Below are positions 15,370-40,557 of a stretch of 64,000 bases of DNA, piece after piece; positions within the stretch are counted from its first letter, which is position 1; each line of letters begins with the position of its first letter. The notes under the pieces were generated by a model. The model made no database searches and had not been told where the DNA came from. It saw only the letters and a program-made list of their open reading frames with translations. This DNA is from Thermoleophilaceae bacterium (GTDB lineage: Bacteria; Actinomycetota; Thermoleophilia; Solirubrobacterales; Thermoleophilaceae): the NCBI GenBank assembly GCA_040901445.1, contig JBBDYQ010000007.1, forward strand, positions 62,001-126,000, in the 5' to 3' direction. The position numbers were made by a program, and so were the translations under genes.

Positions 15370-17162
15370 CAGCCGGAGTACATCCCCTCGATGACATCCT
15401 CGAACTCGCGCGCGATCGCCGCACGCTTGACCTTCTGCGTGGCCGTGAGCTCGCCGTCCTCGTGGTCGAGCTCCTTGCGCAGCAGCTCGAAGCGCTTGAT
15501 GGTCTCCACCTGGGCGAACTGCCCGTTGACCTCGGCGACGACGACCTCCACCAGCTCCCGCACCTCGTCCCGCCCGGCCAGGTCGCCGTAGGTGGTGAAC
15601 GGGATGCCCTTCCGCGCCGCCCAGTCCCCCACCGTGTCGCCCTCGATCCCGATCAGCGCCGAGAGGTACTTGCGGCGGTCGCCGATCACGACCGCGTCGC
15701 GCACGTAGGGAGAGACCTTGAGCCGGTTCTCGATCTCCGACGGCGAGACGTTCTTTCCGCCCGCGGTGATGATGATGTCCTTCTTGCGGTCGGTGATCGT
15801 GAGGTAGCCGTCGGCGTCGAGCTCCCCCACGTCGCCCGTGCGCAGCCAGCCGTCGGCGTCGATCGCGGCGGCCGTGGCGCCGGCGTCCTTGAGATAGCCC
15901 GCGAACACGCCCGGCGAGCGGGTGAGGATCTCGCCGTCGTCGGCGATCTGCAGCTCCACCTCTTCCAGCGCGCACCCGACGGTGCCGATGCGCACGTCGT
16001 CCGCGGGCGTGTACGTGGCCATCGCGGTGTTCTCCGTCTGGCCGTATCCCTCCCGCACCGGGATGCCGAGCGTCCACAGCCAGCGCAGCACCTCCGGGGC
16101 GACGGGCGCGGCGCCCGACAGCGCCACCGTCACGCGCCGCATGCCGAGCTTGTCGCGCAACGGGCGGAAGACGAGGATCCAGCCCAGCCCGTAGGCGAGC
16201 CGGTCGAGGAAGCCGAAGCGGCCCGCGAGGCGGCGCTCGGCCACGCGCCCGCCGAGGCGGATGCCCAGGCGGTACACCGCGCGCTTGAGGCGGCTGGCGT
16301 CGGCCATCCGGATCTCGACTCCGGCCATCATCTTCTCCCACACGCGCGGCACCCCGAGAAAGAAGGTGGGCTGCACCTCGCGCAGGTCCCCGGTGAACGT
16401 CTCGGCGTCCTCGCCGAAGTTCACGACGTAGCCGCCGTGCAGGGCGTCCACCCCCGAGACGAGCCGTTCCGCCACGTGACAGAGCGGCAGGTAGGAGAGC
16501 ACCTCGTCGCGCGGCGAGGTGTCGTACACGCGTAGATAGGCGCCGCCGGCGGCCGCCAGGTTGGCGTGGGTGAGCATGGCCCCCTTCGGCGGGCCCGTGG
16601 TGCCCGACGTGTAGACGACGATGGCCGTGTCGGAAGGCTCGAGCGCCGCGACACGCTCCTCGAACTCGCGCAGCTCGCGCCGGTTCCCGAGCGCCTCCAG
16701 CTCGTCGAAGGTGAGGATGCTCTCGTCCTCGAGCGCCCGCACGCCGCGCGGGTCTACCACCACGATGGCGCGCAGGGCGGGCAGGCGTTCGCGCACCTCC
16801 AGCGCCTTGTCGAGCTGCTCCTCGTCACCGGCCACGAGGACGACGGACTCCGAGTGGCCGAGCAGGTACTCGACCTCCGGCGCCGGGCTCGTGGGATACA
16901 CCCCCACCGTGACCGCCCCCACGCCCTGGGCGCCGAGGTCGGCCAGCAGCCACTCCGGCCCGTTCTCGGCATGCACCGCCACCCGGCCGCCCGGACCCAC
17001 GCCCAGCTCGAGGAGGCCCAGCCCCACGCGCGCCGCGCGGCGGGCGTACTCGTCCCAGGTCCACTCGCGCCAGCGCCCGAGGTGCTTCCGGCGGATGGCG
17101 ACGTCGCCCGGGCGTTCGCGCGCCCGGGCGAGCAGCAGCTCCGGGAGCGAGGCCTGGCTCAC
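15369..17162 (-). CDS. fadD: Long-chain fatty-acyl-CoA synthetase (AMP-forming)
   Basis: A 597-aa adenylate-forming enzyme that activates carboxylic acids, probably fatty acids, to acyl-CoA. Motifs: the phosphate-binding loop VVYTSGTTGPPKGAML (residues about 180-195), the LPLCHVAER segment, the adenine motif EGYGQTEN, the hinge region LRTGDVGELDADGYLTITDR, and the C-terminal KDIIITAGGKNVSPSEIE. It resembles the FadD15-like long-chain branch. It lies inside the liv operon with overlaps on both sides (GTGA with livG, TGATG with livH), so import and CoA activation of an acid are plausibly coupled. Confidence 0.92.
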   Translation of the reverse strand: MSQASLPELLLARARERPGDVAIRRKHLGRWREWTWDEYARRAARVGLGLLELGVGPGGRVAVHAENGPEWLLADLGAQGVGAVTVGVYPTSPAPEVEYLLGHSESVVLVAGDEEQLDKALEVRERLPALRAIVVVDPRGVRALEDESILTFDELEALGNRRELREFEERVAALEPSDTAIVVYTSGTTGPPKGAMLTHANLAAAGGAYLRVYDTSPRDEVLSYLPLCHVAERLVSGVDALHGGYVVNFGEDAETFTGDLREVQPTFFLGVPRVWEKMMAGVEIRMADASRLKRAVYRLGIRLGGRVAERRLAGRFGFLDRLAYGLGWILVFRPLRDKLGMRRVTVALSGAAPVAPEVLRWLWTLGIPVREGYGQTENTAMATYTPADDVRIGTVGCALEEVELQIADDGEILTRSPGVFAGYLKDAGATAAAIDADGWLRTGDVGELDADGYLTITDRKKDIIITAGGKNVSPSEIENRLKVSPYVRDAVVIGDRRKYLSALIGIEGDTVGDWAARKGIPFTTYGDLAGRDEVRELVEVVVAEVNGQFAQVETIKRFELLRKELDHEDGELTATQKVKRAAIAREFEDVIEGMYSG

Positions 17163-17962
17163 GCGGGGGCGTCCTCCGTGCCGAGGTACGCGGCGATCAC
17201 GCGCTCGTCGCCCTGGATCTCGGCCGGCGTGCCGTGGGCGATGACCTCGCCGAAGTCGAGGGCCAGCACACGGTCGGCCAGATCCATGACGAGCGCCATG
17301 TCGTGCTCCACCAGCACGGTGGTGATGCCGAGCCGCTGCCCGATCTCGACGATGTAGCGGGCCATGTCCTCGGTCTCCTCGAGGTTCATGCCGGCCACGG
17401 GCTCGTCGAGCAGCAGCAGCCGCGGCTCCATGGCCAGCGCCCGTCCGACCTCCACCCGCTTCTGGATCCCGAACGGGAGCAGGCCCACGTGCTGATGCCG
17501 GTGGGCCTGGAGCTCGAGGAAGTCGATGATCTCCTCCACCTTGCGGCGGTGCTCGACCTCCTCGCGCCGGGCGCGCCCGACCCACAGCGCGCCGCCGAGG
17601 AAGCCCGTGCGCATGCTCAGATGGCGCCCGAGCATCACGTTGTCCACAACGGAGAGGTTCTCGAACAGCCCGAGGTTCTGGAACGTCCGCCCCACACCGA
17701 GCTGGGCGCTCTCGCGCCGCCGCCCCACGAGGTTTTCGCCCGCCAGCCGGATGCTGCCCTCCTGCGGCCGGTAGACGCCGTTGAGGCAGTTGAAGATCGA
17801 GGTCTTGCCGGCGCCGTTGGGGCCGATGATCGCGAACAGCTCGCCCTCGTCGACGCTGAAGCTGACGTCGCGCAGCGCGGTCACGCCGAAGAAGCGGAGG
17901 GTGACGTGGTCGAGCTCGAGCAGGCTCGCGCCCTCACGGGCGCGGGCGCTCACGCGCTCCAC
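17159..17962 (-). CDS. livG: ABC transporter ATP-binding protein (LivG)
   Basis: A 267-aa ATPase. Walker A is GPNGAGKT, the Q-loop is in GRTFQNLGLF, Walker B is LLLLDEPVAGMN, and the H-loop is LVEHDMALV. The signature motif is atypical: LLPFGIQKRVEVGRAL occupies the place of LSGGQ. The LivG-specific insertion after the Q-loop (GRHLSMRTG through the RRKVEE region) is present. Two GTG starts are possible: 17962, chosen for its better-spaced purine-rich site, or 17953, which gives a four-base overlap with livF. It works with LivF as the motor of the importer. Confidence 0.92.
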   Translation of the reverse strand: MERVSARAREGASLLELDHVTLRFFGVTALRDVSFSVDEGELFAIIGPNGAGKTSIFNCLNGVYRPQEGSIRLAGENLVGRRRESAQLGVGRTFQNLGLFENLSVVDNVMLGRHLSMRTGFLGGALWVGRARREEVEHRRKVEEIIDFLELQAHRHQHVGLLPFGIQKRVEVGRALAMEPRLLLLDEPVAGMNLEETEDMARYIVEIGQRLGITTVLVEHDMALVMDLADRVLALDFGEVIAHGTPAEIQGDERVIAAYLGTEDAPA

Positions 17963-18789
17963 CGCTTCCGCCGCCGGTAGCTCTTGACGTCGCGGAACGA
18001 GCGCCGCCCGGCCTCGCCCACCATCCCGAGGTAGAACTCCCGCACGTCCTGGTCCTCGCGCAGCTCTTCCGCCGGGCCGTCCAGCACGACGCGGCCGTTC
18101 TCGAGCACGTAGCCGTAGGAGGCCACCTGCAGGGCCATGGCGGCGTTCTGCTCCACCAGCAGCACGCTGGTGCCCTGCCGGTTGATCTCGACCACGATGT
18201 CGCGGATCTGGCCCACGAGCGCCGGGGCCAGGCCCAGCGAGGGCTCGTCGAGGAGCAGCAGCCGCGGGGCAGCCATCAGCGCCCGGCCGATGGCGAGCAT
18301 CTGCTGCTCGCCGCCCGAGAGATACCCCGCCACGTGGCCGCGGCGGTCGCGCAGCGCCGGGAACAGCTCCATGACGCGGGCGTGCGCTTGGGCGAGGCCG
18401 TCGCGGCGGGTGAAGCCGCCCGTCCGGAGGTTCTCGTCCACGGTGAGCTCGGCGAATATGCGCCGTCCCTCCATCACCTGCGCGACGCCGCGGCGCACGA
18501 TCGCCGGCGCGTCGAGCCCCGCGAGCGCCGTGCCGTCGAGCTGGATCGACCCCTTGGTGATCTCACCCCGGTGCACGGGCAGCAGCCCGGTGACGGCACG
18601 CAGCAGCGTGGTCTTGCCCGCGCCGTTGGCCCCGAGCAGCGCGACCACCTTCCCGGGCGGAACCTCCAGGCTGACACCCCGCAGGACGAGGGAGACGTCG
18701 TCGTACACCACCTCGAGGTTTCGCACGCCGAGGCTGGCCGCCGCTGTGGGGCTCGTCTCCTCCTCCGGCGCGTGGGCGGGTGGCTCCAT
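17950..18789 (-). CDS. livF: ABC transporter ATP-binding protein (LivF)
   Basis: A 279-aa ATPase and first gene of the liv operon. Walker A is GANGAGKTT, the Q-loop region is GVAQVMEGRRIFAELTVDENL (typical LivF wording), the signature is YLSGGEQQML, Walker B is LLLLDEPSLGLAP, and the switch is LLVEQNAAMALQ. The C-terminus has an unusual basic tail of about 20 residues (RRSFRDVKSYRRRKRW). ATG 18789 is preceded by an in-frame GTG at 18792. The operon order is livF-livG-fadD-livH-livM-livK. Confidence 0.93.
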   Translation of the reverse strand: MEPPAHAPEEETSPTAAASLGVRNLEVVYDDVSLVLRGVSLEVPPGKVVALLGANGAGKTTLLRAVTGLLPVHRGEITKGSIQLDGTALAGLDAPAIVRRGVAQVMEGRRIFAELTVDENLRTGGFTRRDGLAQAHARVMELFPALRDRRGHVAGYLSGGEQQMLAIGRALMAAPRLLLLDEPSLGLAPALVGQIRDIVVEINRQGTSVLLVEQNAAMALQVASYGYVLENGRVVLDGPAEELREDQDVREFYLGMVGEAGRRSFRDVKSYRRRKRWSA

Positions 18790-18799
18790 CACGCCCTTG

Positions 18800-18832
18800 G
18801 GTTCCTATCACTTCCGAGGGTCGGAAGGAACC
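18800..18832 (-). terminator. Imperfect hairpin at the end of the Wzm/Wzt unit
   Basis: GGTTCCT then TTCCGA-GGG-TCGGAA then GGAACC form a nearly continuous stem with a five-base bulge. It sits between the stop of the wzt gene (18876) and the start of livF, so it probably ends wzm-wzt transcription before the liv operon promoter. Confidence 0.55.
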
Positions 18833-18875
18833 GGATGGGGTAATGGCGGCGCGTGCGTGGACGGATGTCCGAGCG

Positions 18876-20075
18876 TCAGCGGGCATCCACGCGCCAGCTG
18901 CGCGGCGGGACGAGCAGGCCTCCGCCCCGGCGCCCGCGGACCTCCAGCTCGTAGGCGTGCCAGTGGAAGTCGAACACCACGTCCCAGTCCGCGCGGTACA
19001 GGCCGACGTCGAGCACGTAGGAGCCCGGGGCGAGGTCGAGCCGGTCGAGGGCGAGGGTGACCGTTCCCCGCTCGAGCCGGCCGACGGCGACGCCCTCGTC
19101 ACGCGTGTTCGCCTCAACGCACAGCGGCCCGTCGGGCGCGCGATGCACGGCCACCGCGACGATCGGGTCGAGCAGCGGTCCGCGCGCGCTGCGCACGTCG
19201 ATCGCCACGGTCAGGGAAGCGCCGGCCTCGACCGCGCCCGGCAGGCGGACGCCCTCGATCGTGGCCTCCTGGGTGCCCACCCGGTTGCGGCGCAGCTCCA
19301 GCGGCCCGCCGTGACCGCCGTCGGGCGGCGTGCGCTCGATCGTGTCCTGACGCGCCGCCTCCTCGTATGCAGCGACGACCGACGCGGCGTCGCCCCGAGC
19401 CCGGACCGCGCCCGCGTCGAGCCAGAGCGCCTGGTCGCACTCGCGCTCGACCAGCCGGAGGTCGTGCGAGGCGAGCACGAGCGCGGCACCGTCCTCGCGC
19501 ATCGCCCGGATGCGGTCCGCGCACTTGGCCTGGAAGGCCAGATCGCCGACCGCCATCACCTCGTCCACGAGCAGCGCCTCGGGGCGAAGCTGCGCGATCA
19601 CGCCGAACGCCAGCCGCAGCTTCATCCCCTCGCTGTAGGTCCGGACGGGCGCGTCGGCGAACTCCTGCAGCTCGGCGAACTCGAGCGCCGGCGACACCAG
19701 CGTGCGCGCCTCCGCCCGCGACCAGCCCGCGACGATCGCGGCGGTCAGGGCATTCTCGCGGCCGCTGAGCGTCAGGTCCAGCGTGTCGCCGAGCGTGAGC
19801 ACGGACGCCACGCCCGGCGGCGTGCTCACGCTTCCGCGCGTGGGCCGGCCGAGCCCTGACGCGAGCCGCAGGAGCGTGGACTTGCCGGCGCCGTTGCGCC
19901 CGATCAGGCCCAGGCTTTGCCCCGCGCCCACCTCCGCCGACACGTCGCGAAGCACCCAGCGCTGCTCGCCGCGCCGCACCAGCAGGGGCGCGCGGCGAGC
20001 CGCCACGGCACGCACCGTCCGCCCGCCCGCCGGCCAGCGCGGGTAGGCCTTCCACACGCCCTCGAGCCGGATCAC
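18876..20075 (-). CDS. wzt: Polysaccharide/teichoic-acid exporter ATPase with carbohydrate-binding domain (Wzt type)
   Basis: A 399-aa ATP-binding subunit of an ABC-2 glycan exporter. The ATPase domain (about 1-250) has Walker A GRNGAGKSTLL, signature YSEGMKLRLAFG (typical of Wzt/TagH/RfbE), Walker B LLVDEVMAVGD and the H-loop ASHDLRL. The C-terminal domain (about 270-399) is a beta-sandwich with GSYVLDVGLYRADWDVVFDF, like the Wzt carbohydrate-binding domain that recognises the glycan's terminal cap. The GTG start overlaps the permease stop by four bases. The divergent giant glycosyltransferase is a likely partner for building the exported glycan. Confidence 0.9.
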   Translation of the reverse strand: MIRLEGVWKAYPRWPAGGRTVRAVAARRAPLLVRRGEQRWVLRDVSAEVGAGQSLGLIGRNGAGKSTLLRLASGLGRPTRGSVSTPPGVASVLTLGDTLDLTLSGRENALTAAIVAGWSRAEARTLVSPALEFAELQEFADAPVRTYSEGMKLRLAFGVIAQLRPEALLVDEVMAVGDLAFQAKCADRIRAMREDGAALVLASHDLRLVERECDQALWLDAGAVRARGDAASVVAAYEEAARQDTIERTPPDGGHGGPLELRRNRVGTQEATIEGVRLPGAVEAGASLTVAIDVRSARGPLLDPIVAVAVHRAPDGPLCVEANTRDEGVAVGRLERGTVTLALDRLDLAPGSYVLDVGLYRADWDVVFDFHWHAYELEVRGRRGGGLLVPPRSWRVDAR

Positions 20076-27441: not shown

Positions 27442-28905
27442 CTAGGGCGTGGCTGGCTCGCGCCCTGCGTCGCCGTCCGGCTTGGCCACGAGGTCGTCCT
27501 CGCCGGCGCCGGGGACGGGGAAGCGCGTTCCGTCATAGAGCGACGGCGGTTGCACGAAGCACGGCGGCAGCCCGGGCCTGGGGGCCGGCTGCTCGCCACC
27601 GGCGGGCTTGCAGTCGAACGCCTCGTACATGCCGAGCGCGCGGGCGCGCTTGACGTAGTTCGGAGACGGGTAGGCGTTCCCGCGCTCGATGGGCTGGCGG
27701 GTGCGCTGCAGCGCAAGCCCGCTGGAGTTGAGGATCCCGATCTGGCGCAGGTAGTGACGCGGGCCCTCCCCCTCCGGCGTGGGCAGCGTGGCGTTGAGGG
27801 TGTTGCCACCGCGGGAGATGAAGTCCGAGACCTGCTCCTGCTGGAAGTTGAGCAGCGCGATTATCGGGTTGAGCTGCTGCAGGTACGGATGCAGGGAGCC
27901 GAGCACCGGCGAGGCGCCGCGCAGGAAGTCCGCGGCGCGTGGCAGCGTGCCCGGGGCCTCGTCGATCACCGGGTCGAGGTTGCGGAAGAGTCCCTCGAGG
28001 TCGGGCGCGAGGCGGCCGACGTCGCGCAGCGTGGGCGCCAGGTCGGTGGCCACCGGCTGCAGGTCCTCCACCAGGGGCTGCGTGTCCACGGAGAAGCGCT
28101 CGAGGCGCGCCACGGTGATGCGCGTCTCGTCGAGGAAGGTGGGCAGGATGTCGATCGTCTGGGCCAGCGCCTCGTTTCGTGAGGCCAGCGCCCCGAACGT
28201 GTTGTCCGCGTTGACGATCAGCTCTTGGAACTGCCCGCGCCGCTCGTTGATGGCCCCGAGCGCGATGCCCGTGTTCTTGACGAGCCGGCGCAGCGCCGGC
28301 TCCTCCTCGTCGAGCACCTCGAGCACGTCGGCGCCGGTGGCCACGAAGCGCGGCAGGTTGCCGAAGGCGTCGCTGAGGTCCTCCCCCCTCCCCTTGTCGA
28401 TGGCCGTGGCCAGCTCGCGGACCCAGCCCTGGAGGTTCGAGCGGGTGTCCTCGTCGAAGGCGCTGATGACCTCGTCGATCTCGACCGACTCCTCCACTCG
28501 GGCGTCCTCCAGCGTGTGGCCGTCGTGGAGCGGCTCGGCATCGCGTGGCCCGGCGCTGAGCTCGACGTAGGTCTGGCCCAGCAGCGACTTGGGCCGCAGG
28601 ATGGCCCGTGCCTCGGAGCCGATCGGCGCGTACGCCTCGTCGAGCTCGATCTCGGCGATCGTGCCCCCGCCCTCGGCCAGCGAGGTCTTCTTGACCTTGC
28701 CCACGTTGAGCCCCGCCATGCGGACGTCGGCCTCCTGCACGAGCAGCGTGGCCTCGTCGAAGCGCACGTTGAAGCGGTAGCCCTCCGGCCGCAGCGGCGA
28801 CGGCCCGCCGAACGAGACCCACAGGAACAGCAGCAGCCCGAAGCACGACAGCGTGAACGCCACCATTGCGGCGAGCTTTGCGGTGGTCGGTGTCTGCTTC
28901 TGCAT
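27442..28905 (-). CDS. MCE-family protein, sixth in the cluster
   Basis: A 487-aa membrane-anchored substrate-binding subunit of an MCE lipid transporter. One N-terminal helix (about residues 8-32, AAMVAFTLSCFGLLLFLWV) precedes the MCE domain. The domain begins GYRFNVRFDEATLLVQEADVRMAGLNVGKV and contains LLGQTYVELS. A long helical needle region (about 150-380) with repeated leucines follows, and the tail is proline-rich with two cysteines (FDCKPAGG, PPCFVQPP). ATG 28905 was chosen; GTG 28917 would overlap the previous gene. It is the last MCE gene. Confidence 0.9.
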   Translation of the reverse strand: MQKQTPTTAKLAAMVAFTLSCFGLLLFLWVSFGGPSPLRPEGYRFNVRFDEATLLVQEADVRMAGLNVGKVKKTSLAEGGGTIAEIELDEAYAPIGSEARAILRPKSLLGQTYVELSAGPRDAEPLHDGHTLEDARVEESVEIDEVISAFDEDTRSNLQGWVRELATAIDKGRGEDLSDAFGNLPRFVATGADVLEVLDEEEPALRRLVKNTGIALGAINERRGQFQELIVNADNTFGALASRNEALAQTIDILPTFLDETRITVARLERFSVDTQPLVEDLQPVATDLAPTLRDVGRLAPDLEGLFRNLDPVIDEAPGTLPRAADFLRGASPVLGSLHPYLQQLNPIIALLNFQQEQVSDFISRGGNTLNATLPTPEGEGPRHYLRQIGILNSSGLALQRTRQPIERGNAYPSPNYVKRARALGMYEAFDCKPAGGEQPAPRPGLPPCFVQPPSLYDGTRFPVPGAGEDDLVAKPDGDAGREPATP

Positions 28906-28907
28906 GG

Positions 28908-30248
28908 CTAGGGGCACAGCCCCGGGTCGGAGAGCACGTCGCCCAGGCCGAGGATCTCCTCGACGATGGCCGCACCGCCGGGCTCCTGCACGAGCCCGAG
29001 GTAGGTCGAGCAGCTGGCCAGCGGCACGAAGCGCCGCAGCGGGCCCTGGGCGTCGCCTGTGGCGAACAGGGAGTTGGAGTTCTTCGCCACCCAGGCGAGC
29101 CAGTACAGGAGGCCCTCCTCGCGGGCGGTGTCGGCCGCGAGGTCGCCCGAGAGCTGTTCGGCGCCGCCCGGGTTGAAGGCGGCGATGTTGAAGAAGCGGT
29201 TGAGCTCGTAGAAGCTCTCGCGCAGATCGGGGCTGGCCTCGCCGAGATCCTCGGCGGCGGGCCGGAGGTCGTCGATGTAGGGACGCGCGTCGCGCACGAA
29301 CGGCCGGATGCGCTCGCGGAGCACGGGCTCGATCTCCTCGCCGAGCGGGCGCAGCTCGGAGTTGGCCGCGTCGAGCTCGCGCACCGCGGGGCGCAGCGCC
29401 TCGAACGCCGGGCCCGCGACGTCACCGAGCTCACGCACCCGCCGGAGCGTGGCCTCGGTCTGGGCGAGCGCGGACGGCAGCCGCTCGACGGCCTGCGAGA
29501 TCTCGGCGTCCTGCAGCGCCAGCTTGTCGAAGACCTCGCTCGACGCGGACACCAGCTCCACGAGGCGGCGGTCCTCACGTCCGAGTCGCTCGATCGTCGA
29601 GCCGTAGTTGTTGATGAGCCGCGCCAGGTTCTCGCGCCGCGTGGCCACCAGCCGGTTCAGCCGCGAGAGGTCGCGGTGCAGCGGGCCGAGCCGGCGGAAC
29701 ACCTCGCGCAGGTCGCCGCCGCGGTCCTCCAGGCCCTTCCCCGCGCCGTTGATCAGCAGCTTGAGGTAGTCGCGGGTGTCGCGGTCCAGTGCCGAGAGGA
29801 TCTCGTCCGGGTTGACGTCGGTGGACGTGTTCGCGGCGGCGATCACGCCGTCCTCCTCGACGGCCGGCGCCCCCGGGCTGCCGGGATCGAGCGCGAGGAA
29901 CATGTCCTTCAGGCCGGTGCGCGGGCGCAGCAGCGCTGTGGCGTCCCTGCGCACGAGCTCGGAGTAGCGCTCCTCGAGATCGAGCCGCACGCGAGCCTTG
30001 CCCTCGTGCAGCTCCACGGTTCCGATCGAGCCCACTTCCATGCCTGACACCCGGACGGTCTGTCCCTGCCCGGGCGTGACCGCCTGCGCGTTCTGCAGCT
30101 CGACCCAGACGACGAACGGCTTCTCCTCCAGGATCGGGAAGCGCAGCCGCTGGTTGGCGAGCAGGTATCCGCCCACGCCTATCCCCACGGCGAACATCGC
30201 GAGCAGGGCGACGAAGTCGCGCGTGTGCTTGCGGATGGCGGTCCTCAT
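28908..30248 (-). CDS. MCE-family protein, fifth in the cluster
   Basis: 446 aa. A basic N-terminus (MRTAIRKHTRDF) leads into one transmembrane helix (about 12-31). The MCE domain contains VTPGQGQTVRVSGMEVGSIG and ends near FLALDPGSPG. A helical region (about 140-390) precedes a C-terminal segment with PLASCSTYLGL and the final LCP. The repeated EV..LRP.A..L pattern is that of the helical barrel that conducts lipid in MCE complexes. The ATG overlaps the previous gene's stop by four bases. Confidence 0.9.
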   Translation of the reverse strand: MRTAIRKHTRDFVALLAMFAVGIGVGGYLLANQRLRFPILEEKPFVVWVELQNAQAVTPGQGQTVRVSGMEVGSIGTVELHEGKARVRLDLEERYSELVRRDATALLRPRTGLKDMFLALDPGSPGAPAVEEDGVIAAANTSTDVNPDEILSALDRDTRDYLKLLINGAGKGLEDRGGDLREVFRRLGPLHRDLSRLNRLVATRRENLARLINNYGSTIERLGREDRRLVELVSASSEVFDKLALQDAEISQAVERLPSALAQTEATLRRVRELGDVAGPAFEALRPAVRELDAANSELRPLGEEIEPVLRERIRPFVRDARPYIDDLRPAAEDLGEASPDLRESFYELNRFFNIAAFNPGGAEQLSGDLAADTAREEGLLYWLAWVAKNSNSLFATGDAQGPLRRFVPLASCSTYLGLVQEPGGAAIVEEILGLGDVLSDPGLCP

Positions 30249-31843
30249 CGGCGCTCCCTCCAGCGCCCATCCCGCGTGCGTACGAGTCCGAGCAGGTCGG
30301 ACTGGAGCTCGATCCCCTCCTCGGAGAACTGCAGGGGGTCGATCGAGGGCAGGCCGCGCAGGACCGAGTCGAGGTGGGTCGTGATCTCCTCGAGCTGCTC
30401 CGCTCCGAGCTCGGCCCGGCGGCGGTCCGAGGCGGTCCGCTGCGGCTGTGCCTGAACCTGCTGGTCACCCGCGGCGGCCGGTGCGCTCAGGTCCGGGGGC
30501 TCCTGGGTCTCGCACGGCACGTTCGGCCGGAACACCGGGGCCTGCGGGGGCCGCGGCGGCCGGACGCCGAGCAGCGGCAGGCCGACCTGCCCGTAGAGGC
30601 GCTCGCCGAGCTCGCCGGTGGAGACCACGGTGGTGGCGCCGCTGGTGGCGAGCGTGCGGAAGTACGGGGTGTTGGCGTCGGCCAGCCTGCTCTCGCCGGA
30701 CAGCCCGACGAACGCCCGCGGCGACTCCTCGAAGAAGGCCTCGCCCGAGTGCTCCGGGAAGGCGGGGTCGGGAACGGGCGTGGTGGAGAACGGCAGCAGC
30801 ACGCGGTTCTGGCAGCGGGCCAGCGCGCGGGTCTGCTCGAAGCTGCGCGCCGAGCGCTCGTTGAGGCGCACGAGGGCGGGCACGGTCTCGCGCAGGTCCT
30901 CGGCGAGGCCGCCGGCCTCGCCGGGCGACACCAGCCTGCGCGCCTGCGTGATGAAGGGGATCTGGGCGTCGAGCGTGGCCCGCGAGGAGCGCGCCCCCGG
31001 CAGGGCGTCGCGGGCGAAGGCGCGTATGGAGGGCAGCGCGGTGTTGAGCGACTGCAGCGCCGGACGGCCCTCGCGCAGCACGTCGCGCAGCTCCGGGATG
31101 GCCGCGCGCAGGTTGTCCTCCTGCTCGGCGAAGGAGGCCACGGTGGCGTTGAGGTCGGTGACCAGGTCCATCAGGGCCCGCTCGTCCCGCGACAGCGCGC
31201 CGAACACGCGCGCCTGGCCGTCGAGCACGCGCGTGAGGTCGTGCTCCTCCTCGCCGAGCGTGGCCTGGCTCACCAGCGCGGTGTTGCGGTAGGCGGACTC
31301 CCAGTGGCGGATGGCCTGGTTGAACCCGCGGGCGCCGGACCCGCGGTAGCCGTCCGAGAGCTCCCGCAGAAGCGATTGGAGGTCCTCGCGGGTGTCCGAC
31401 TGGAGCGCGCTGAGCACCTGGCCGAACTGGACCGGGAAGGCGGTCTGGTTGGGCGGGATCGTGTGCCCCGAGTCCACCTCCCGGGCGGGGGGAGAGCCGG
31501 GGTGCAGCTCCACGAAGTAGTTGCCCTCGAGGAACAGGCGCGAGCGGACCTTGAGCTCGGCGTCGCGCTTGATGGGCAGCGCCTCGTCGTCGAGCTCCAT
31601 CGTGACCCGCGCCATCCCGGAGCCGTCGCCGAGCGACTCGACACGCGTGACCTTGCCCACATCGATCCCGGCGATGCGCACGGGCGAGCGGACGGCGAGG
31701 TTGTTGGCCGACTCGAACACGGCCTTGAGCTCGTAGGGCTGGGCGAACGGGTTGGACTTCGTGAACGCGAAGTAGGTCCCGAACACCACGAGCACGAGGC
31801 CGATCAGCCCGATGCCGAACGGTGTGGCGCGCCGCCGGCTCAC
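30245..31843 (-). CDS. MCE-family protein, fourth in the cluster
   Basis: 532 aa. The start is GTG in a GTGA overlap with the upstream gene. One N-terminal helix (GIGLIGLVLVVFGTYFAF) is followed by a canonical MCE domain with SANNLAVRSPVRIAGIDVGKVTRVE and FLEGNYFVELHPGSP. The helical region runs to about residue 370. The C-terminal ~140 residues are proline- and glutamine-rich with one cysteine (PNVPCETQEPP) and a final helix DSVLRGLPSIDPLQF. It is the longest C-terminal tail of the set after the second gene. Confidence 0.9.
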   Translation of the reverse strand: MSRRRATPFGIGLIGLVLVVFGTYFAFTKSNPFAQPYELKAVFESANNLAVRSPVRIAGIDVGKVTRVESLGDGSGMARVTMELDDEALPIKRDAELKVRSRLFLEGNYFVELHPGSPPAREVDSGHTIPPNQTAFPVQFGQVLSALQSDTREDLQSLLRELSDGYRGSGARGFNQAIRHWESAYRNTALVSQATLGEEEHDLTRVLDGQARVFGALSRDERALMDLVTDLNATVASFAEQEDNLRAAIPELRDVLREGRPALQSLNTALPSIRAFARDALPGARSSRATLDAQIPFITQARRLVSPGEAGGLAEDLRETVPALVRLNERSARSFEQTRALARCQNRVLLPFSTTPVPDPAFPEHSGEAFFEESPRAFVGLSGESRLADANTPYFRTLATSGATTVVSTGELGERLYGQVGLPLLGVRPPRPPQAPVFRPNVPCETQEPPDLSAPAAAGDQQVQAQPQRTASDRRRAELGAEQLEEITTHLDSVLRGLPSIDPLQFSEEGIELQSDLLGLVRTRDGRWRERR

Positions 31844-33381
31844 GGCACGTCCTCGATCCCGTCGATGCCCAGCTCACGCGCCTTGTAGGTGCCGCCGTAG
31901 CGGATGCCCGGGAGATCGGTGCTCCGCACGACGTGGCTGCCGCCGCCCTCGGCGGGGTTGGTCGAGGGGCCGTAGCGGCTGTCGGGGACGTTCGGGCCCG
32001 ACGTGTACCCCGTCTGGCCCACCTGGCAGTCGGCCTTGCCCTGGGCGTCGACCGCGGGCGTGTACGCGCCGGCGTGGAGCGCCACGAGCTGGTCCCCCAG
32101 CGGGTCGCGCGAGTCGATCGGCTGATCCGACGGGATGTCCGCGGGGCGGTCGGCGTCGTGGGTGGAGATGCGGTTGTCCTGGGTGCGGTTGTCGGAGCCC
32201 AGCGAGCTGCGCTGGAGCGTGCCGCCCGGCACCGGCTCGGACACGTGCTCGCCGATGGCGTTCCAGTAGTAGTTCCAGTAGTTGCAGACCGTCTGGAACG
32301 GCGCGACCCACTCCACGAGCGGTGTGGCCACGTCGAGCAGGTCGTGCAGGTCCTGCAGGCCGAGCAGGGTGGTGGGCTCCGAGGCCAGATCGTCCAGCGC
32401 GGCGAAGACGTTCTGCGTCTCCCTGTACAGCGCCGGGGCGCGCGCGAGCACCGGGGCGCCCGTCTCGAGCGCGTCCGTGGTGGGCGGCAGCGAGCGCGTC
32501 ATCTCCAGCGCCACGGGCTCGAGCCGCCGCATGAGCTCCTCGGTCTCGGCGAGGAACGGGCGCTGCACCGGGAAGCTCCGGATGGCCTGCTCCAGCGTCG
32601 GCGCCCCGCGCTCGATCGTGCCGCGCAGGCGCTCGGGATGGCGGCTCAGCGCCTCGAACGTGGTGGCCATGTTCACGAACAGGGACGCGTACGTGCGCGC
32701 GACGGGGGCGATCTGCCCGGAGAAGCGCTCGCTCTGACGGAAGAGCTCGCCGAGGTCGTTGTCCGGGTCCGACAGCGTGCGCATCACCGGCTCGAGGTGG
32801 GTGACGAACGGGACGAGGCTCTGGATCGCGAGGTTGATCGACTGGCCGCGCCCGGCGAACGCGTTGCCGAAGCCCTGCAGGGTCGTGCGCTGGTTGCCCC
32901 GGAACTCGGCGTCGTTGAGCCCGAAGAACTCGTCGAGCTCGGTGGGCTTGACCGCGTTCTCCAGCGGGATGGTGGCCCCGGCTGCCAGCGCCCGCGCGCT
33001 GGTGCCCGGGGTGAGCTCGATGTACTTCAGTCCCAGCGCCGAGCGCGGGCGGACCGTGATGCCGGTGTCCACGGCCAGCGGCTCCACCTTCTTGTCGAGC
33101 TTCATGTGCACGACCGCGATCGAGCGCTGGGCGCCGCGGGGGCTCACGGCCGGGCGGATCTGCTCGATCACGCCGACGCGGAAGCCGCCCATGCGGACCT
33201 CGTTGCCCTCGATCAGGTTCGCACCGCCCGGGAGCTCGGCCCTGAGGTCGTAGCTCGGCACGAACGGGAGTCCGCGGTTGGCCTGGACGGCGAGCAGCAC
33301 CGCCACGCACGCGACGAGCAGGGTGATGGCCCCGACGAGGACGGGGCTGGCGACGACGGAGCGGGCGGGGCGCCGGGTCAT
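31840..33381 (-). CDS. MCE-family protein, third in the cluster
   Basis: 513 aa from ATG 33381, which overlaps the upstream stop (ATGA). A transmembrane helix (about 10-33) precedes an MCE domain with LPGGANLIEGNEVRMGGFRV and ALGLKYIELTPGTSA. The helical region spans about 140-330, with a conserved TVCNYWNYYWNAIGEHV motif near residue 365. The C-terminal ~100 residues are Gly/Asp/Pro-rich and contain one cysteine (GKADCQVGQTGY). The NYWNYYWN wording recurs as NYIYWQTLG in the second MCE protein, suggesting a shared lid or contact site. Confidence 0.9.
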   Translation of the reverse strand: MTRRPARSVVASPVLVGAITLLVACVAVLLAVQANRGLPFVPSYDLRAELPGGANLIEGNEVRMGGFRVGVIEQIRPAVSPRGAQRSIAVVHMKLDKKVEPLAVDTGITVRPRSALGLKYIELTPGTSARALAAGATIPLENAVKPTELDEFFGLNDAEFRGNQRTTLQGFGNAFAGRGQSINLAIQSLVPFVTHLEPVMRTLSDPDNDLGELFRQSERFSGQIAPVARTYASLFVNMATTFEALSRHPERLRGTIERGAPTLEQAIRSFPVQRPFLAETEELMRRLEPVALEMTRSLPPTTDALETGAPVLARAPALYRETQNVFAALDDLASEPTTLLGLQDLHDLLDVATPLVEWVAPFQTVCNYWNYYWNAIGEHVSEPVPGGTLQRSSLGSDNRTQDNRISTHDADRPADIPSDQPIDSRDPLGDQLVALHAGAYTPAVDAQGKADCQVGQTGYTSGPNVPDSRYGPSTNPAEGGGSHVVRSTDLPGIRYGGTYKARELGIDGIEDVP

Positions 33382-34991
33382 GGTGTCAGGAGGTAGTCGA
33401 GGAGCTGACCGTCGGCGCCGCCTGAGCCCGGTGCCTGACGGGCGTCGCCGGGCGGGTCGCCGCCGTCGCGCGAGAGCAGCCCGCCGAGGCGGTCGACGAG
33501 CTCCTGCACGGCCCGCGGGAGGACGATCTGCGGCCGCGAACGGTCGGGCTGGCCGGGCAGCGGCTCCGTGGCACGCACGGCGGGGCCGTCCGCCGCGGGC
33601 CCTGGGGCGTCCTCCGAGCGCCTCGCCGTGCGCTCCAGCGCGGCGGCCTCCCCGGCGCCGGCCGTGGGATCCGGATCCGTGACGCCGGGCTGGAACGGGC
33701 CGAGCCAGGAGGCGCAGCTGTCGATCAGCTCCTGGTCCGGGCGGGCGGTGTAGCGCAGGCACGACCCGCCGGCCAGCAGGCCCACCCGCAGGAGGTGGCC
33801 GAGCTCGTCGAACGCGTTGATGCCCAGCGTCTGCCAGTAGATGTAGTTGAAGAGGTTCTCCATCCCGGTGTAGCCCTGGCCGTCCCGGTATGCGGTCTTG
33901 TCGGGCGCCGGCGGGGCCCGGAGGCCGGCCTCCGGGTCGTCCTCGTACGAGCGCCGGCGGTCGTCGATGGCCTGGAGGAACTGGCGCAGCGGCTTGCCGA
34001 GGCGGGGTGCGTCCTCGGCGAGCGCCCGCAGCTCGGCGATCTCCTCACCCGACTCGGCGATCGCCCCCCGCCCGGTGACCGCCGCCTCTCCCAGCGAGCT
34101 CAGCGAGGCACGGGAGGAGCGCGCGAAGGGCTGGACGGCGACGAAGAAGCGCTGCAGGTCGGGCGCCGCCCGGCGCAGCCGCTGCAGCGTCGGGATCTGG
34201 CGCGAGGCGGTGCGCTCGAGCTGGGCCATGGTGGGCTCGAGCTCGGCGAGGAAGCGCGGGAGCCGGTTCCAGTAGCGCCCCAGCTCCTCGCTGCGCGAGG
34301 CCTGGATGCCGGCGGTGTCGGACGACTCCTGCGCCCAGCGCGCGAGGTCCTCGCGGAAGGGCTCGACCTCGGCGCTCACCTGGTCCGCGTTCTCGATGAA
34401 GTCGCGGATGATGCGGTTGTGGTCGGCGAGGATCTCGAACGTCTCGCTGGTCTCGCGCAGCGCGGGGTGGGCGCGGCGCACCACCTCGTTCAGCTCCTGC
34501 GGCCGGCCGGCCAGGCCCGTGCCGAGCTCCGACAGGATCAGCCGGAAGCGCTCCCGGTAGGGGCGCCGCATGACGTTCTGGATCAGGTCGAGCGGGATCG
34601 TCGAGGAGGTCTGCTCCACCGGCACCCGCCCGCCGTCGGGCAGCTCACTCGGCTCCTCGCCGATGTCACAGTCCACGAAGTACTCGCCGATCAGCGACTG
34701 CTGCCGGACGTCGCATTCGGCATCGGTGCGGAACGAGGCGAACCCCGGCTCGTCCACGACCACCTCGGCCACCACGCGATACGGCGGCTTCTCCTCGAGC
34801 TGGAAGCCGGTCGTCTCGCCCGCGATCACGCCCCCGATCTTGAGGTCGCCGCCCTCCACGAGCCCGAAGGCGTTGTCGAACACGATCTCGTAGCGCTTAC
34901 CCGACTCCTCGTCGCCTGCCGCGCCCGTGAACAGCGCGATCGCGGCCGTGCCGGCGGCCAGGAGGAGCATGGAGAAGAGCCGGCGCATCAT
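33378..34991 (-). CDS. MCE-family protein, second in the cluster
   Basis: 537 aa. The hydrophobic N-terminus MMRRLFSMLLLAAGTAAIALF could be an anchor or a signal. The MCE domain contains NAFGLVEGGDLKIGGVIAGETTGF and SLIGEYFVDCDIGEEP, with a cysteine pair (CDVRQQ, DCDIG) unusual among its neighbours. The helical region spans about 150-350, with NLFNYIYWQTLGINAFD near residue 380. The C-terminal ~100 residues are Pro/Arg/Glu-rich and look disordered. ATGATG at the start gives two possible initiation codons overlapping the upstream stop. Confidence 0.9.
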   Translation of the reverse strand: MMRRLFSMLLLAAGTAAIALFTGAAGDEESGKRYEIVFDNAFGLVEGGDLKIGGVIAGETTGFQLEEKPPYRVVAEVVVDEPGFASFRTDAECDVRQQSLIGEYFVDCDIGEEPSELPDGGRVPVEQTSSTIPLDLIQNVMRRPYRERFRLILSELGTGLAGRPQELNEVVRRAHPALRETSETFEILADHNRIIRDFIENADQVSAEVEPFREDLARWAQESSDTAGIQASRSEELGRYWNRLPRFLAELEPTMAQLERTASRQIPTLQRLRRAAPDLQRFFVAVQPFARSSRASLSSLGEAAVTGRGAIAESGEEIAELRALAEDAPRLGKPLRQFLQAIDDRRRSYEDDPEAGLRAPPAPDKTAYRDGQGYTGMENLFNYIYWQTLGINAFDELGHLLRVGLLAGGSCLRYTARPDQELIDSCASWLGPFQPGVTDPDPTAGAGEAAALERTARRSEDAPGPAADGPAVRATEPLPGQPDRSRPQIVLPRAVQELVDRLGGLLSRDGGDPPGDARQAPGSGGADGQLLDYLLTP

Positions 34992-36454
34992 TCGATCGGC
35001 CCCGTGGCCCGGTGGGACTCCACGCAGTCCAGCTCCCGCTGCTGCTCCTCGCTGAACACGTTCGAGCCGTCGTCGGCGGCCTCCTCCGCGCCGCCCGGGC
35101 AGCGCTTGAGCTGGCCGGTGCGGGCGATCGAGCTGAAGACCTCGCCGCGATCGACGAGCGGGATGAAGTTCAGCGTGTTGTCGTTCACGCTGAACGCGTT
35201 GAAGAACGTCTGCGCGCGCGAGAAGCTGCCGAGCGCGTCGTAGGCGCCGGTGTGGGAGAAGTCGTCCATCCAGCCGAGGAAGTCGGTGGTGTAGGGACGG
35301 CCGTGGGCAACGACGGGCGCGCTGTCGGTGAGCGCCTCGGCCAGCTCAGGGAAGGCGCCGCGCGTCTCCCCCACCGCCGCGGGACCCGTGCCGAAGTCGA
35401 CCTCCCGGTCCGCCGTCTCGAGCGCGATGTCGGCCAGCGGCGGATAGGTGCGCTGGAGCTCGAGCAGGTCGTTGCCGGCGCGTGGGGTGCGCAGCAGCGC
35501 CCGCAGGTCCCGCACGGTGGGCCGCGCCTCGCGGGCGAAGGGCCGCAGCTGCCGGAGATACGGCTGCAAGCGCTGGGCCACGGGCTTGGACGCGGCCACG
35601 AACGGATCCAGCTCGTCGAGCGTCCCGCGCAGGTTGACGTACGTCGTGTTGGCCGTGCGCATGAAGCCGGGGAAGCGCTGGATGGCCTCCGCGAGCGCGA
35701 CACGCTCGGTGCCGAGCGCGCGCGTGGTGGCGTTGAGGTTGCCGATCAGCGCCGCCAGGTCGTCACGGCGGGCGGCGAGTGACGTCACGAGGCGCGAGGA
35801 GTCCACGAGGAAGCGCTCGAGCACCGGCGGGTCGTGGCGCAGCTCCTCGAACAGGCGGCTGGAGGCCGCGAGCTGCGGGTTGAGGTACAGCAGCCCGCGG
35901 TTGGCCTGCTCACCGCGGCCGGTGTAGGCCCGGTTGAGCCCCTCGTAGAAGCCCTGAAGGTCCTCCCGGGTCTCGGGGTCGAGGGTGTTGAAGAGCTGGT
36001 CGAGCTCGACGTTGGCCGCGGTGCGGTCGGCCGTGAGCACGCCGCCCTCCGGGATGTCGCCGCCGGCCTCGTCCTCGCCGGGGAGGAACAGCTCCACATA
36101 GCGGTTGGACGTGGACGAGAGCGAGCCGGTCCGGATGACCGCGCGGGTGCCCACTCGCAGCGGCGCATACTCGTCGCGGATCGAGAGGTCGACCTCGGCC
36201 TCACCGTCCGGCGTGATGCGGAAGCCGGTGACCTCGCCCGCCTGGGTGCCGCCGATCTCGACGAAGTTGCCCTGCACGAGCTGCCCGGCATTGAGGAAGC
36301 GGGCCTTGATCTCGTACCCGCCGCCTCCTGCTCCGAACAGGATGACGGCCACGAACGCGATCGCCAGGCCGACGGCGATCAGCGCAGCGGTGCGGGCCAG
36401 CGGGCTGCCGCTGTCCCCATCCCGGTCACTGCTGGCGTCACCCCTGCCGGTCAC
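34988..36454 (-). CDS. MCE-family protein, first in the cluster
   Basis: 488 aa, GTG start 12 bp after the MFS gene. A polar N-terminus of about 20 residues precedes one transmembrane helix (TAALIAVGLAIAFVAVILFG). The MCE domain begins YEIKARFLNAGQLVQGNFVEIGGTQAGEV in two visible strands and continues to SNRYVELFLPG. The helical region spans about 140-330, and an FSVNDNTLNFIPLV segment lies near residue 430. The tail contains two cysteines (KRCPGG, LDCVES). It probably sits first in the hexamer order, but A-F names are not assigned because no YrbE anchors the cluster. Confidence 0.9.
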   Translation of the reverse strand: MTGRGDASSDRDGDSGSPLARTAALIAVGLAIAFVAVILFGAGGGGYEIKARFLNAGQLVQGNFVEIGGTQAGEVTGFRITPDGEAEVDLSIRDEYAPLRVGTRAVIRTGSLSSTSNRYVELFLPGEDEAGGDIPEGGVLTADRTAANVELDQLFNTLDPETREDLQGFYEGLNRAYTGRGEQANRGLLYLNPQLAASSRLFEELRHDPPVLERFLVDSSRLVTSLAARRDDLAALIGNLNATTRALGTERVALAEAIQRFPGFMRTANTTYVNLRGTLDELDPFVAASKPVAQRLQPYLRQLRPFAREARPTVRDLRALLRTPRAGNDLLELQRTYPPLADIALETADREVDFGTGPAAVGETRGAFPELAEALTDSAPVVAHGRPYTTDFLGWMDDFSHTGAYDALGSFSRAQTFFNAFSVNDNTLNFIPLVDRGEVFSSIARTGQLKRCPGGAEEAADDGSNVFSEEQQRELDCVESHRATGPIE

Positions 36455-36466
36455 GGCACAGCGAGA

Positions 36467-37780
36467 CTACCCGCTGGATGCCGGCGCGGGCTGCACCATT
36501 TCGCCCGGCCGCGGGGCCACCCGCGCCCGCAGCACGACGGCCGTGCCCACCACGAGCGCGCCGGCCAGCGTCAGCAGGCCCGCGTCGAGGGATCCGGTGG
36601 CGTCCTTCAGGATCCCCACCACCACCGGCCCGAACAGCCCGCCGGTGACGCCGATGGTGTTCACGAGCGCGATGCCGCCCGCCGCGGCGCGCCCGCTGAG
36701 CATGCCCGTCGGCAATGTCCAGAACGCGGGGATCACGCCGAGCAGGCCGAAGGTGGCGATCACCGCCCCGAGCATGGCCGGCACGGGCGGCAGCACCACC
36801 AGGAGCACGGTGCCGATCGCGCCGAGCGCCAGCCCGGCGGCCACCGGCCGGCGGCGGTCGGCGGCGCGATCGGCGGCCCGGCCGAGCACGTACAACCCGG
36901 CCGTGCCGAAGGCGAACGGGATGGTGGCCACCAGCCCCAGCTCGATCGGGCGCAGCTCGCCGACGCGCTCGATGATGTCCGCCAGCCAGAAGATCAGCCC
37001 GTAGCCCGCGAAGTTCGAGCAGAAGTACACGGCCCCCAACCGCAGCACCCGCCGGTCGGTGAGCGCTGCGCGCAGATCGAGCCCCTCAAGCGCCTCGCGC
37101 GCCGACGACTCCTCCGCGAGCTGCCGCTCGAGGGCGGCCGTCTCCGCCGGGTCGAGCCAGTCCGCCTCGCGCGGCGTATCCGGCAGCGCGCGCAGGACGT
37201 ACAGGCCGATGAGCACCGCCGGAGTCCCCTGCCCGATGAACAGCCACTGCCAGCCCGTGAGCCCCAGCACGCCGTCCAGCTCCAGCAGCCCGCCGGAGAA
37301 GGGCCCGCCGAGCACGGCGGCGATCGCCACGCCGGTCATGAAGTAGCCGGTGGCCCGGGCGCGGTCGGAGTCCGGGAACCAGCACAGCAGGAAGTAGATG
37401 ACCCCCGGGAAGAAGCCCGCTTCGGCGAAGCCCAGCAGCAGCCGGAACACGATCAGGGACGTGCCGTCCCAGGCCAGCGCGGCAGCCGCCGCGAACACGC
37501 CCCAGGTGATCATGATCCGCGCGAGCCAGCGGCGCGCGCCCACTCGGTGCAGCACGAGGTTGCTCGGCACCTCGAGCACCAGATAGCCCAGGAAGAAGAT
37601 GCCCGAAGCCAGCCCGAACATGGTCGCGCTGAGCCCCAGGTCGCGCGTGAGCTCGTCCTCGGCGAAGGTGATGTTCACGCGATCGATGAACGCGATCACG
37701 TGCATGCCCACCAGCAACGGCAGCAGTCGCCGCAGCGCCGTGGCCACCGCCGAGTCCAGCGGCGTGCGTGCCTCCTCCAC
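36467..37780 (-). CDS. MFS transporter (anion:cation symporter-like)
   Basis: A 437-aa major facilitator with about twelve helices. The N-terminal signature RLLPLLVGMHVIAFIDRVNITFAE and the VLEVPSNLVLHRVGARRWLARI loop are typical of the ACS family (carriers of organic anions such as tartrate, phthalate, 4-hydroxyphenylacetate). The central cytoplasmic loop is about residues 195-230. The gene lies 12 bp upstream of the first MCE gene in the same direction and takes the position where yrbEA/yrbEB permeases usually stand. Its substrate is unknown. Only 20 bp separate its start from the divergent acyl-CoA dehydrogenase. Confidence 0.9.
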   Translation of the reverse strand: MEEARTPLDSAVATALRRLLPLLVGMHVIAFIDRVNITFAEDELTRDLGLSATMFGLASGIFFLGYLVLEVPSNLVLHRVGARRWLARIMITWGVFAAAAALAWDGTSLIVFRLLLGFAEAGFFPGVIYFLLCWFPDSDRARATGYFMTGVAIAAVLGGPFSGGLLELDGVLGLTGWQWLFIGQGTPAVLIGLYVLRALPDTPREADWLDPAETAALERQLAEESSAREALEGLDLRAALTDRRVLRLGAVYFCSNFAGYGLIFWLADIIERVGELRPIELGLVATIPFAFGTAGLYVLGRAADRAADRRRPVAAGLALGAIGTVLLVVLPPVPAMLGAVIATFGLLGVIPAFWTLPTGMLSGRAAAGGIALVNTIGVTGGLFGPVVVGILKDATGSLDAGLLTLAGALVVGTAVVLRARVAPRPGEMVQPAPASSG

Positions 37781-37800: not shown

Positions 37801-38979
37801 ATGGCCGCCACCGACACCACTCCGATGCTGCCCCTGGTCCCCTCCGGCGAGGAGACGATGCTGCGCGAGACCGTGCGCGCGATCGTGAGCGACTTCGGGC
37901 ACGAGTACTCCATCGCCAAGACCGAGGCCGGCGAGCCGCCCACCGAGCTGTGGGACGCGCTGGCCAGCCGCGGCTTCCTCGGGGTCAACCTGCCGGAGGA
38001 ATACGGCGGCGGCGGGCTGGGCATGGCCGCCCTGGCGGCGGTCGGCGAGGAGATCTCGGGGGCGGGCTGCTCGCTGCTGCTCATCGTGGTCTCCCCCGCG
38101 ATCGCCGGCAGCATCCTGGTGCGCCATGGCACCGAGGAGCAGAAGGACCGCTGGGTGCGCGGCATCGCCGCAGGCACGACGCGGATCGCCTTCGCCATCA
38201 CCGAGCCCGACGCGGGCTCGAACTCGCACAACATCAGCACGGCGGCGCGCCGTGACGGGGACAAGTGGATCGTGCGCGGCACGAAGACGTACATCTCGGC
38301 CGTCGAGCACGCCGACGCGATCCTGGTGGTGGCCCGCCAGCGCCACGAGGACGGCAACCTCGGCTTGCCGCTCCTGTTCGTCGTGGACACCGACGCGCCC
38401 GGCCTCGAGCGTCAGCACATACCCACCGCGCTGCGGGCGCCCGACAAGCAGTGGACGCTCTTCTTCGATGACGTGGAGCTGCCGGCCGACCGGCTGGTGG
38501 GCTCGGAGACCGCCGGGCTCAAGGCCGTCTTCGACGGGCTCAATCCCGAGCGGATCATGGGCGCCGCCATCGCGCTCGGCGCGGGCCGGCGCGCACTCGA
38601 CCTCGCCGCCGCCTACGCGCGCGAGCGCGTGGTCTGGAACGGCCCCATCGGATCGCACCAGGGCATCTCCCATCCGCTCGCCCAGGCCAAGATCGAGCTC
38701 GAGCTGGCTCGGCTCATGACCCAGAAGGCCGCCGCCCTCTACGACGCCGGCGCACCTGCGGGCGAGCCCTGCAACATGGCCAAGTACGCGGCCGCGGAGG
38801 CCGCCATCCGCTGCGTGGACCAGGCCATCCAGACACACGGCGGCAACGGCTTCGCGCTCGAGTACGGGCTCACCGACATGTACTGGGGCGTCCGCCTCAC
38901 GCGCACCGCGCCCGTCTCGCGGGAGATGATCCTGAACTACGTGGCCGAGCACTCGCTGGGGCTGCCCCGCTCCTACTGA
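37801..38979 (+). CDS. Acyl-CoA dehydrogenase
   Basis: A 392-aa FAD enzyme oxidising acyl-CoA in beta-oxidation or a related catabolic path. The first signature is FAITEPDAGSNSHN and the middle domain is GTKTYISAVEHADAILVVA. The C-terminal domain contains QTHGGNGFALEYGLTDMYWGVRL. The usual terminal EGT motif that carries the base in many members is absent: the corresponding stretch reads RTAPVSREMILNYVAEHSLGLPRSY in two parts. This puts it in an atypical subfamily, and the base may lie elsewhere. It is divergent from the MFS-MCE operon by 20 bp, so lipid uptake and oxidation may be co-regulated. Confidence 0.9.
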   Translation: MAATDTTPMLPLVPSGEETMLRETVRAIVSDFGHEYSIAKTEAGEPPTELWDALASRGFLGVNLPEEYGGGGLGMAALAAVGEEISGAGCSLLLIVVSPAIAGSILVRHGTEEQKDRWVRGIAAGTTRIAFAITEPDAGSNSHNISTAARRDGDKWIVRGTKTYISAVEHADAILVVARQRHEDGNLGLPLLFVVDTDAPGLERQHIPTALRAPDKQWTLFFDDVELPADRLVGSETAGLKAVFDGLNPERIMGAAIALGAGRRALDLAAAYARERVVWNGPIGSHQGISHPLAQAKIELELARLMTQKAAALYDAGAPAGEPCNMAKYAAAEAAIRCVDQAIQTHGGNGFALEYGLTDMYWGVRLTRTAPVSREMILNYVAEHSLGLPRSY

Positions 38980-39027
38980 CCGCAGGGTCGCGGAACCGCC
39001 GCGGCCCCTGTTACAGTTGGGAGGGCG

Positions 39028-40557
<1,530 letters not shown>

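Follow-up and report, generated by a model that had tools for sequence, protein, structure and literature searches.

The cluster of six mce genes described here raises a question about how its products are powered: which inner-membrane component would serve an Mce tunnel whose genes stand behind a transporter of the major facilitator superfamily (MFS), and not behind a pair of yrbE permease genes? In mycobacterial systems each mce set has its own yrbE pair, and the ATPase alone is shared. In E. coli, PqiB and LetB are homohexamers of multi-MCE-domain proteins that work with the non-ABC inner-membrane partners PqiA and LetA. The structure of Mce1 shows the MCE ring on top of a YrbE heterodimer and an MceG dimer, with the N-terminal helices of the Mce proteins holding the ring on YrbE-MceG (PMC9882608), and in the Actinomycetales a yrbE pair is described as “almost always” preceding the mce genes (PMC1810536).

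The window, that is, the whole stretch of 64,000 nucleotides analysed from this Thermoleophilaceae bacterium, contains the following genes at the locus, listed from the divergent neighbour down to the last MCE gene:

37801..38979, plus strand: divergent acyl-CoA dehydrogenase gene (three acyl-CoA dehydrogenase domains)
36467..37780, minus strand: MFS transporter, 437 aa, probably of the ACS type (MFS_1, 157 bits)
34988..36454, minus strand: mceA, the first MCE gene, 488 aa (PF02470, 41.4 bits)
33378..34991, minus strand: mceB, 537 aa (PF02470, 30.0 bits), overlapping mceA by 4 bp
31840..33381, minus strand: mceC, 513 aa (PF02470, 36.3 bits)
30245..31843, minus strand: mceD, 532 aa (PF02470, 56.9 bits)
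28908..30248, minus strand: mceE, 446 aa (PF02470, 39.8 bits)
27442..28905, minus strand: mceF, 487 aa with the ATG at 28905 as start or 491 aa with the GTG at 28917 (PF02470, 55.9 bits)

Four of the five junctions between MCE genes are 4-bp overlaps, and the fifth, between mceE and mceF, is a gap of 2 bp with the ATG of mceF or an overlap with the alternative GTG start ahead of it (the start codon of mceC was picked on codon score). The MFS gene lies on the same strand at a distance of 12 bp from mceA, so that the two are probably co-transcribed. All six mce frames are open, with a GC content at codon position 3 of 94–98%, and the layout agrees with the original prediction of six overlapping MCE genes with an MFS gene 12 bp upstream. 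The acyl-CoA dehydrogenase gene begins 20 bp from the MFS start and is a neighbour whose membership in the cluster is putative; together with a gene of the FAD-dependent glycerol-3-phosphate oxidase/dehydrogenase type (37801–40557 for both) it diverges from the MFS-mce operon and forms a lipid-metabolism neighbourhood.

Each of the six proteins has one MlaD/MCE domain (PF02470, 30.0–56.9 bits with a cut-off of 25.1) in a single MCE stretch, and none is a multi-domain chain of the PqiB/LetB type. The NCBIfam Mce model TIGR00996 is the best model for all six, yet it scores 68–109 bits against a cut-off of 140.5, and MceA matches Mce4_CUP1 with 31.2 bits, slightly below the cut-off. N-terminal hydropathy exceeds 1.6 in the six proteins (in MceA a hydrophobic 19-mer begins at residue 24), and by this measure they would carry N-terminal membrane-anchor segments like those of Mce1. 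The cluster thus resembles mycobacterial Mce1 (YrbE1A/B-MceG, Mce1A–F) in its six different single-MCE-domain proteins with hydrophobic N-termini.

The permease and the ATPase are absent from the window, as had also been predicted. The YrbE profile matches none of the 57 genes called in the window, a six-frame translation of the 19.5 kb around the cluster contains no yrbE, and the place directly upstream of mceA, where a yrbE pair would be expected, is occupied by the MFS gene. The three ABC ATPases present (17159–20075) reach no more than 64 bits in comparison with the MceG of this genome, as opposed to 407–579 bits for the full-length MceG-type ATPases of relatives. As in mycobacterial Mce1, the MceG gene is not beside the mce genes; unlike in Mce1, the yrbE pair is also unlinked. 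The absence of a YrbE gene from the operon is likewise a point of resemblance to E. coli PqiA/PqiB and LetA/LetB, from which the cluster differs in its six single-domain proteins and in the presence of YrbE elsewhere in the genome.

The rest of the genome (3.54 Mb in 25 contigs) contains both components. It has 36 MCE genes, six each on contigs C2, C7 (the window), C10, C12, C14 and C15, and two intact yrbE genes, which form a pair linked to the MCE set of C15. The set on C15 (G000, L027:3464-13565) is the sole intact linked arrangement of two yrbE and six mce genes in the genome, and it has no linked mceG. Its GC content at codon position 3 (79–86% in the four genes measured) is lower than that of the six window mce genes (94–98%), which suggests, but does not prove, that it is of separate origin and was perhaps acquired horizontally; mceA of C14 has 98.7%.

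On C14 an ABC ATPase gene lies 273 bp ahead of mceA; its best NCBIfam model is MlaF, with 219 bits and a cut-off of 441. The contig ends 135 bases before the start of this gene, and its terminal bases encode 42 residues. These share 93% identity with core YrbE at its C-terminal end (E=3.3e-20), score 213 in the best YrbE versus 41 in the best other protein, and are matched by the profile in six-frame translation (E=1.3e-15). Because of this match, a second yrbE, of the core type, is almost certainly present in the genome and was cut off by the assembly. Searches with the core YrbE protein and with the 201 bases at the contig end did not find the remaining part on another contig end, the other matches of the 201-base search being short and at chance level, apart from a weak match to the known yrbE of C15. 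Contig ends also fall in or beside yrbE in several other assemblies (L026 end, L134 start, L097 start, L118/L119 ends, L080/L081), and near-identical yrbE repeats that break assemblies may be their cause. The genome therefore holds yrbE and mceG, the former in the C15 pair and in the C14 fragment, the latter on C14, and together with the strict co-occurrence described below this bears out the suggestion, one of two in the original prediction, that the permeases are located elsewhere.

The degree of conservation between sets shows a trend that is similar for both possible sources of a partner. Comparison of the window Mce proteins with the C14 set gives higher values for the membrane-proximal parts (47% for the N-terminus, 53% for the MCE domain) than for the rest (39%), and comparison with the C15 set gives 34%, 41% and 30%, respectively; since the two sets behave alike, conservation does not pick the partner YrbE.

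A survey of the order (120 genomes at least 90% complete, with MlaE taken as PF02405 and MlaD as PF02470) found MlaE in 110 and MlaD in 110, both being absent from the same ten genomes (Fisher's exact p=8.6e-15, relatedness ignored), so that none of the 120 has MCE without YrbE. Within the bacterium's own family (31 genomes, many of them less complete) 25 genomes have MlaD and 24 have MlaE, and the three discordant genomes are all below 90% completeness: G126 (87%) has MlaE without MlaD, and G130 (87%) and G138 (72%) have the reverse. The numbers of the two components are not proportional, since other genomes of the order have 18 MCE and two YrbE genes, or 12 and two.

Co-occurrence is accompanied by physical separation. 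In 23 genomes chosen because they have exactly six MCE genes (21 from the sister family and two, G111 and G112, from the bacterium's own), MCE and YrbE are on different contigs in all 23, a selected sample that gives no frequency for the order, in which genomes with six MCE genes and a linked yrbE also exist (G028, G043 and G099, for example). It is possible that in fragmented assemblies an apparent separation is a broken operon. In G001, G013, G111 and G112 the separation is firm, because the yrbE and mce loci lie deep within contigs of 0.4–1.2 Mb. Among 39 complete six-gene clusters, a non-random sample drawn from the listed matches, 15 are linked to yrbE (in two of these as a mere fragment at a contig end, and in a third as one yrbE gene that the contig edge truncates), and the other 24 show no yrbE in the stretch read, which in some cases ends about 1 kb upstream. 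The gene caller, for which the genes of the window served as training set, overlooked one gene or more (among them an aminotransferase gene upstream of the C12 set), and for this reason the yrbE and mce calls were redone on six-frame translations. The split variant of the Mce importer is common in the order.

The standalone core consists of two yrbE genes followed by the gene of an ABC ATPase (mceG), after which a gene of the MMPL type follows in several loci, and six-frame translation of the stretches read revealed no MCE in any of the 11 core regions examined. In other relatives the ATPase gene is followed by six mce genes and then by a large gene, which at the C14 locus of this genome is of the MMPL family. 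Such MMPL-family (RND-type) genes after a core mce set or a standalone yrbE-mceG core (L026:741-3566, L088:10368-13157, L138:2951-5410, L142:8897-11284) suggest a functional tie of MMPL with Mce. The core loci resemble the Mkl-linked mce operons of non-mycobacterial Actinomycetales, as far as these are described in PMC1810536, in that the ATPase is linked to yrbE and mce; they differ from that description in that the ATPase comes after the yrbE pair, followed in several loci by the MMPL-type gene, and in that the mce block is absent from the core in many relatives. Among the papers listed in searches of the open literature, judged by title and the first lines of the abstract, none describes mce clusters free of yrbE or a yrbE-mceG core that stands separately; subscription papers are mostly outside this scope, so that no claim is made about the literature as a whole.

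A FastTree phylogeny built from the concatenated Mce proteins of 39 clusters places the window cluster in a clade of 14 clusters of its own family, none of them yrbE-linked, with a local support of 1.0. The sets linked to yrbE-mceG group apart, together with the split sets of the sister family (support of 0.994), and one unlinked set (L101) falls inside the yrbE-mceG-linked group; a third group, next to the C15 type, is made up of the C10 set with two relatives. Going by these groupings, the separation of mce and yrbE appears more than once.

The MFS gene at the head of the window cluster can now be considered. Its best relative of solved structure is the D-galactonate transporter DgoT of the ACS family (6e9n, E=4e-16 over residues 15–430), and it passes the cut-off of PF07690 (157 bits); it remains under the curated cut-off of TIGR00893 (288 bits, cut-off of 395), and NCBIfam models of the ACS type in general match it below their cut-offs. 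Its codon composition resembles that of its surroundings. The position that it occupies is variable: among the 18 unlinked clusters of the family that were read, an ACS-type MFS heads only this one, the other head genes having been scanned with Pfam in nine cases and otherwise judged by length, strand and dissimilarity to the window MFS. Unlinked clusters are headed by genes for an SBF-family carrier, an aminotransferase, a DUF4235 protein, an MPAB oxygenase, an RsmI-type methylase, a TetR regulator or a divergent gene; in two genomes of one genus the head gene encodes a chorismate-binding enzyme, and one cluster has an MFS_3 gene at 678 bp. In two genomes of one genus the protein encoded directly upstream of mceA (L137:12485-15091, 868 aa; L141:4313-6769, 818 aa) has no Pfam match.

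Four relatives of the MFS in the order, with 64, 47, 45 and 34% identity, have no MCE beside them in the stretch read in six frames; the first is at a contig edge, with its downstream gene beyond it, and the 12 MCE genes found in its genome all belong to two complete clusters, each headed by a different kind of gene; the genome that hosts the last has no MCE gene. Ten further relatives, in named genomes (38–41%; nine from Pseudomonadota, by genus names, and one from Pseudarthrobacter) have none within the flanks examined. When 399 genomes were drawn more widely from the class, the MFS had a match at E<=1e-60 in only three, this genome included; G101, with a match of 6.7e-115 in the order search, is absent from the matches of that draw. 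The MFS would be an ordinary carrier, probably of the ACS type, in a place where the gene differs from cluster to cluster.

Several explanations of the locus have to be weighed against these data. It has been proposed that the MFS replaces YrbE, the MCE tunnel passing its cargo to the carrier much as PqiB and LetB work with non-ABC partners. The shared strand and the short gap to mceA are compatible with such a role, and a non-ABC inner-membrane partner of MCE proteins, PqiA, is known (PMC10897342). Nevertheless, the two clusters nearest to that of the window (59% identity) have in place of the MFS a gene of the SBF family in one case and, in the other, a divergent gene that Pfam does not match, the adjacency of MFS and MCE genes is seen in this genome alone, and the relatives of the MFS stand without MCE neighbours in the stretches read. 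The original prediction had named a variable gene at this position, in advance, as evidence against an MFS partnership, and such a gene is what was found; the MFS as a substitute motor was accordingly rejected as the main reading, and we regard this reading as highly improbable. It is conceivable that the MFS serves the same pathway as an accessory carrier, for instance in the uptake or export of an acidic product connected with the lipid that is imported, and that the hexamer uses YrbE-MceG all the same. The probable co-transcription with mceA, the adjoining acyl-CoA dehydrogenase gene and the presence of another secondary carrier, of the SBF family, at the head of a sister cluster (L123) are in its favour; the variety of head genes, from the aminotransferase to the methylase, makes it unlikely. 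The MFS is most likely a chance neighbour and not a replacement for the motor.

The lack of a linked permease would also be expected if the cluster were a non-functional relic whose permeases had been lost. A relic would hardly keep six open frames with the codon composition given above, the 24 unlinked clusters among the 39 read still have six genes, and genomes whose only cluster is unlinked retain yrbE, so that we give this explanation scarcely any credence. The reading that we favour, and consider likely, is a split Mce ABC importer, in which the hexamer of the window uses an unlinked YrbE-MceG core and the MFS is not the motor.

In such a split importer, the cluster would encode the periplasmic part of an Mce lipid importer of the actinobacterial type, its six different MCE proteins forming one ring and needle, and the ABC motor of the inner membrane (YrbE and MceG), on which the hexamer would dock, would be encoded elsewhere in the genome. 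Its partner is likely to be the core set (yrbE-yrbE-mceG) that the end of C14 interrupts, with the yrbE pair of C15 as a second candidate. Gene counts suggest that one motor may serve several hexamers, and the cargo is presumably a lipid. There is about an even chance that a single YrbE-MceG acts as a common dock for exchangeable hexamers, up to five in the cell, with the cargo set by whichever hexamer operon is expressed.

These findings call for caution in describing MCE clusters as permease-free from a single window. The order separates the genes of the permease from those of the tunnel, and only the tunnels are multiplied. Should the motor indeed be shared, these bacteria would offer a natural setting in which to test what part of the importer determines its cargo specificity.
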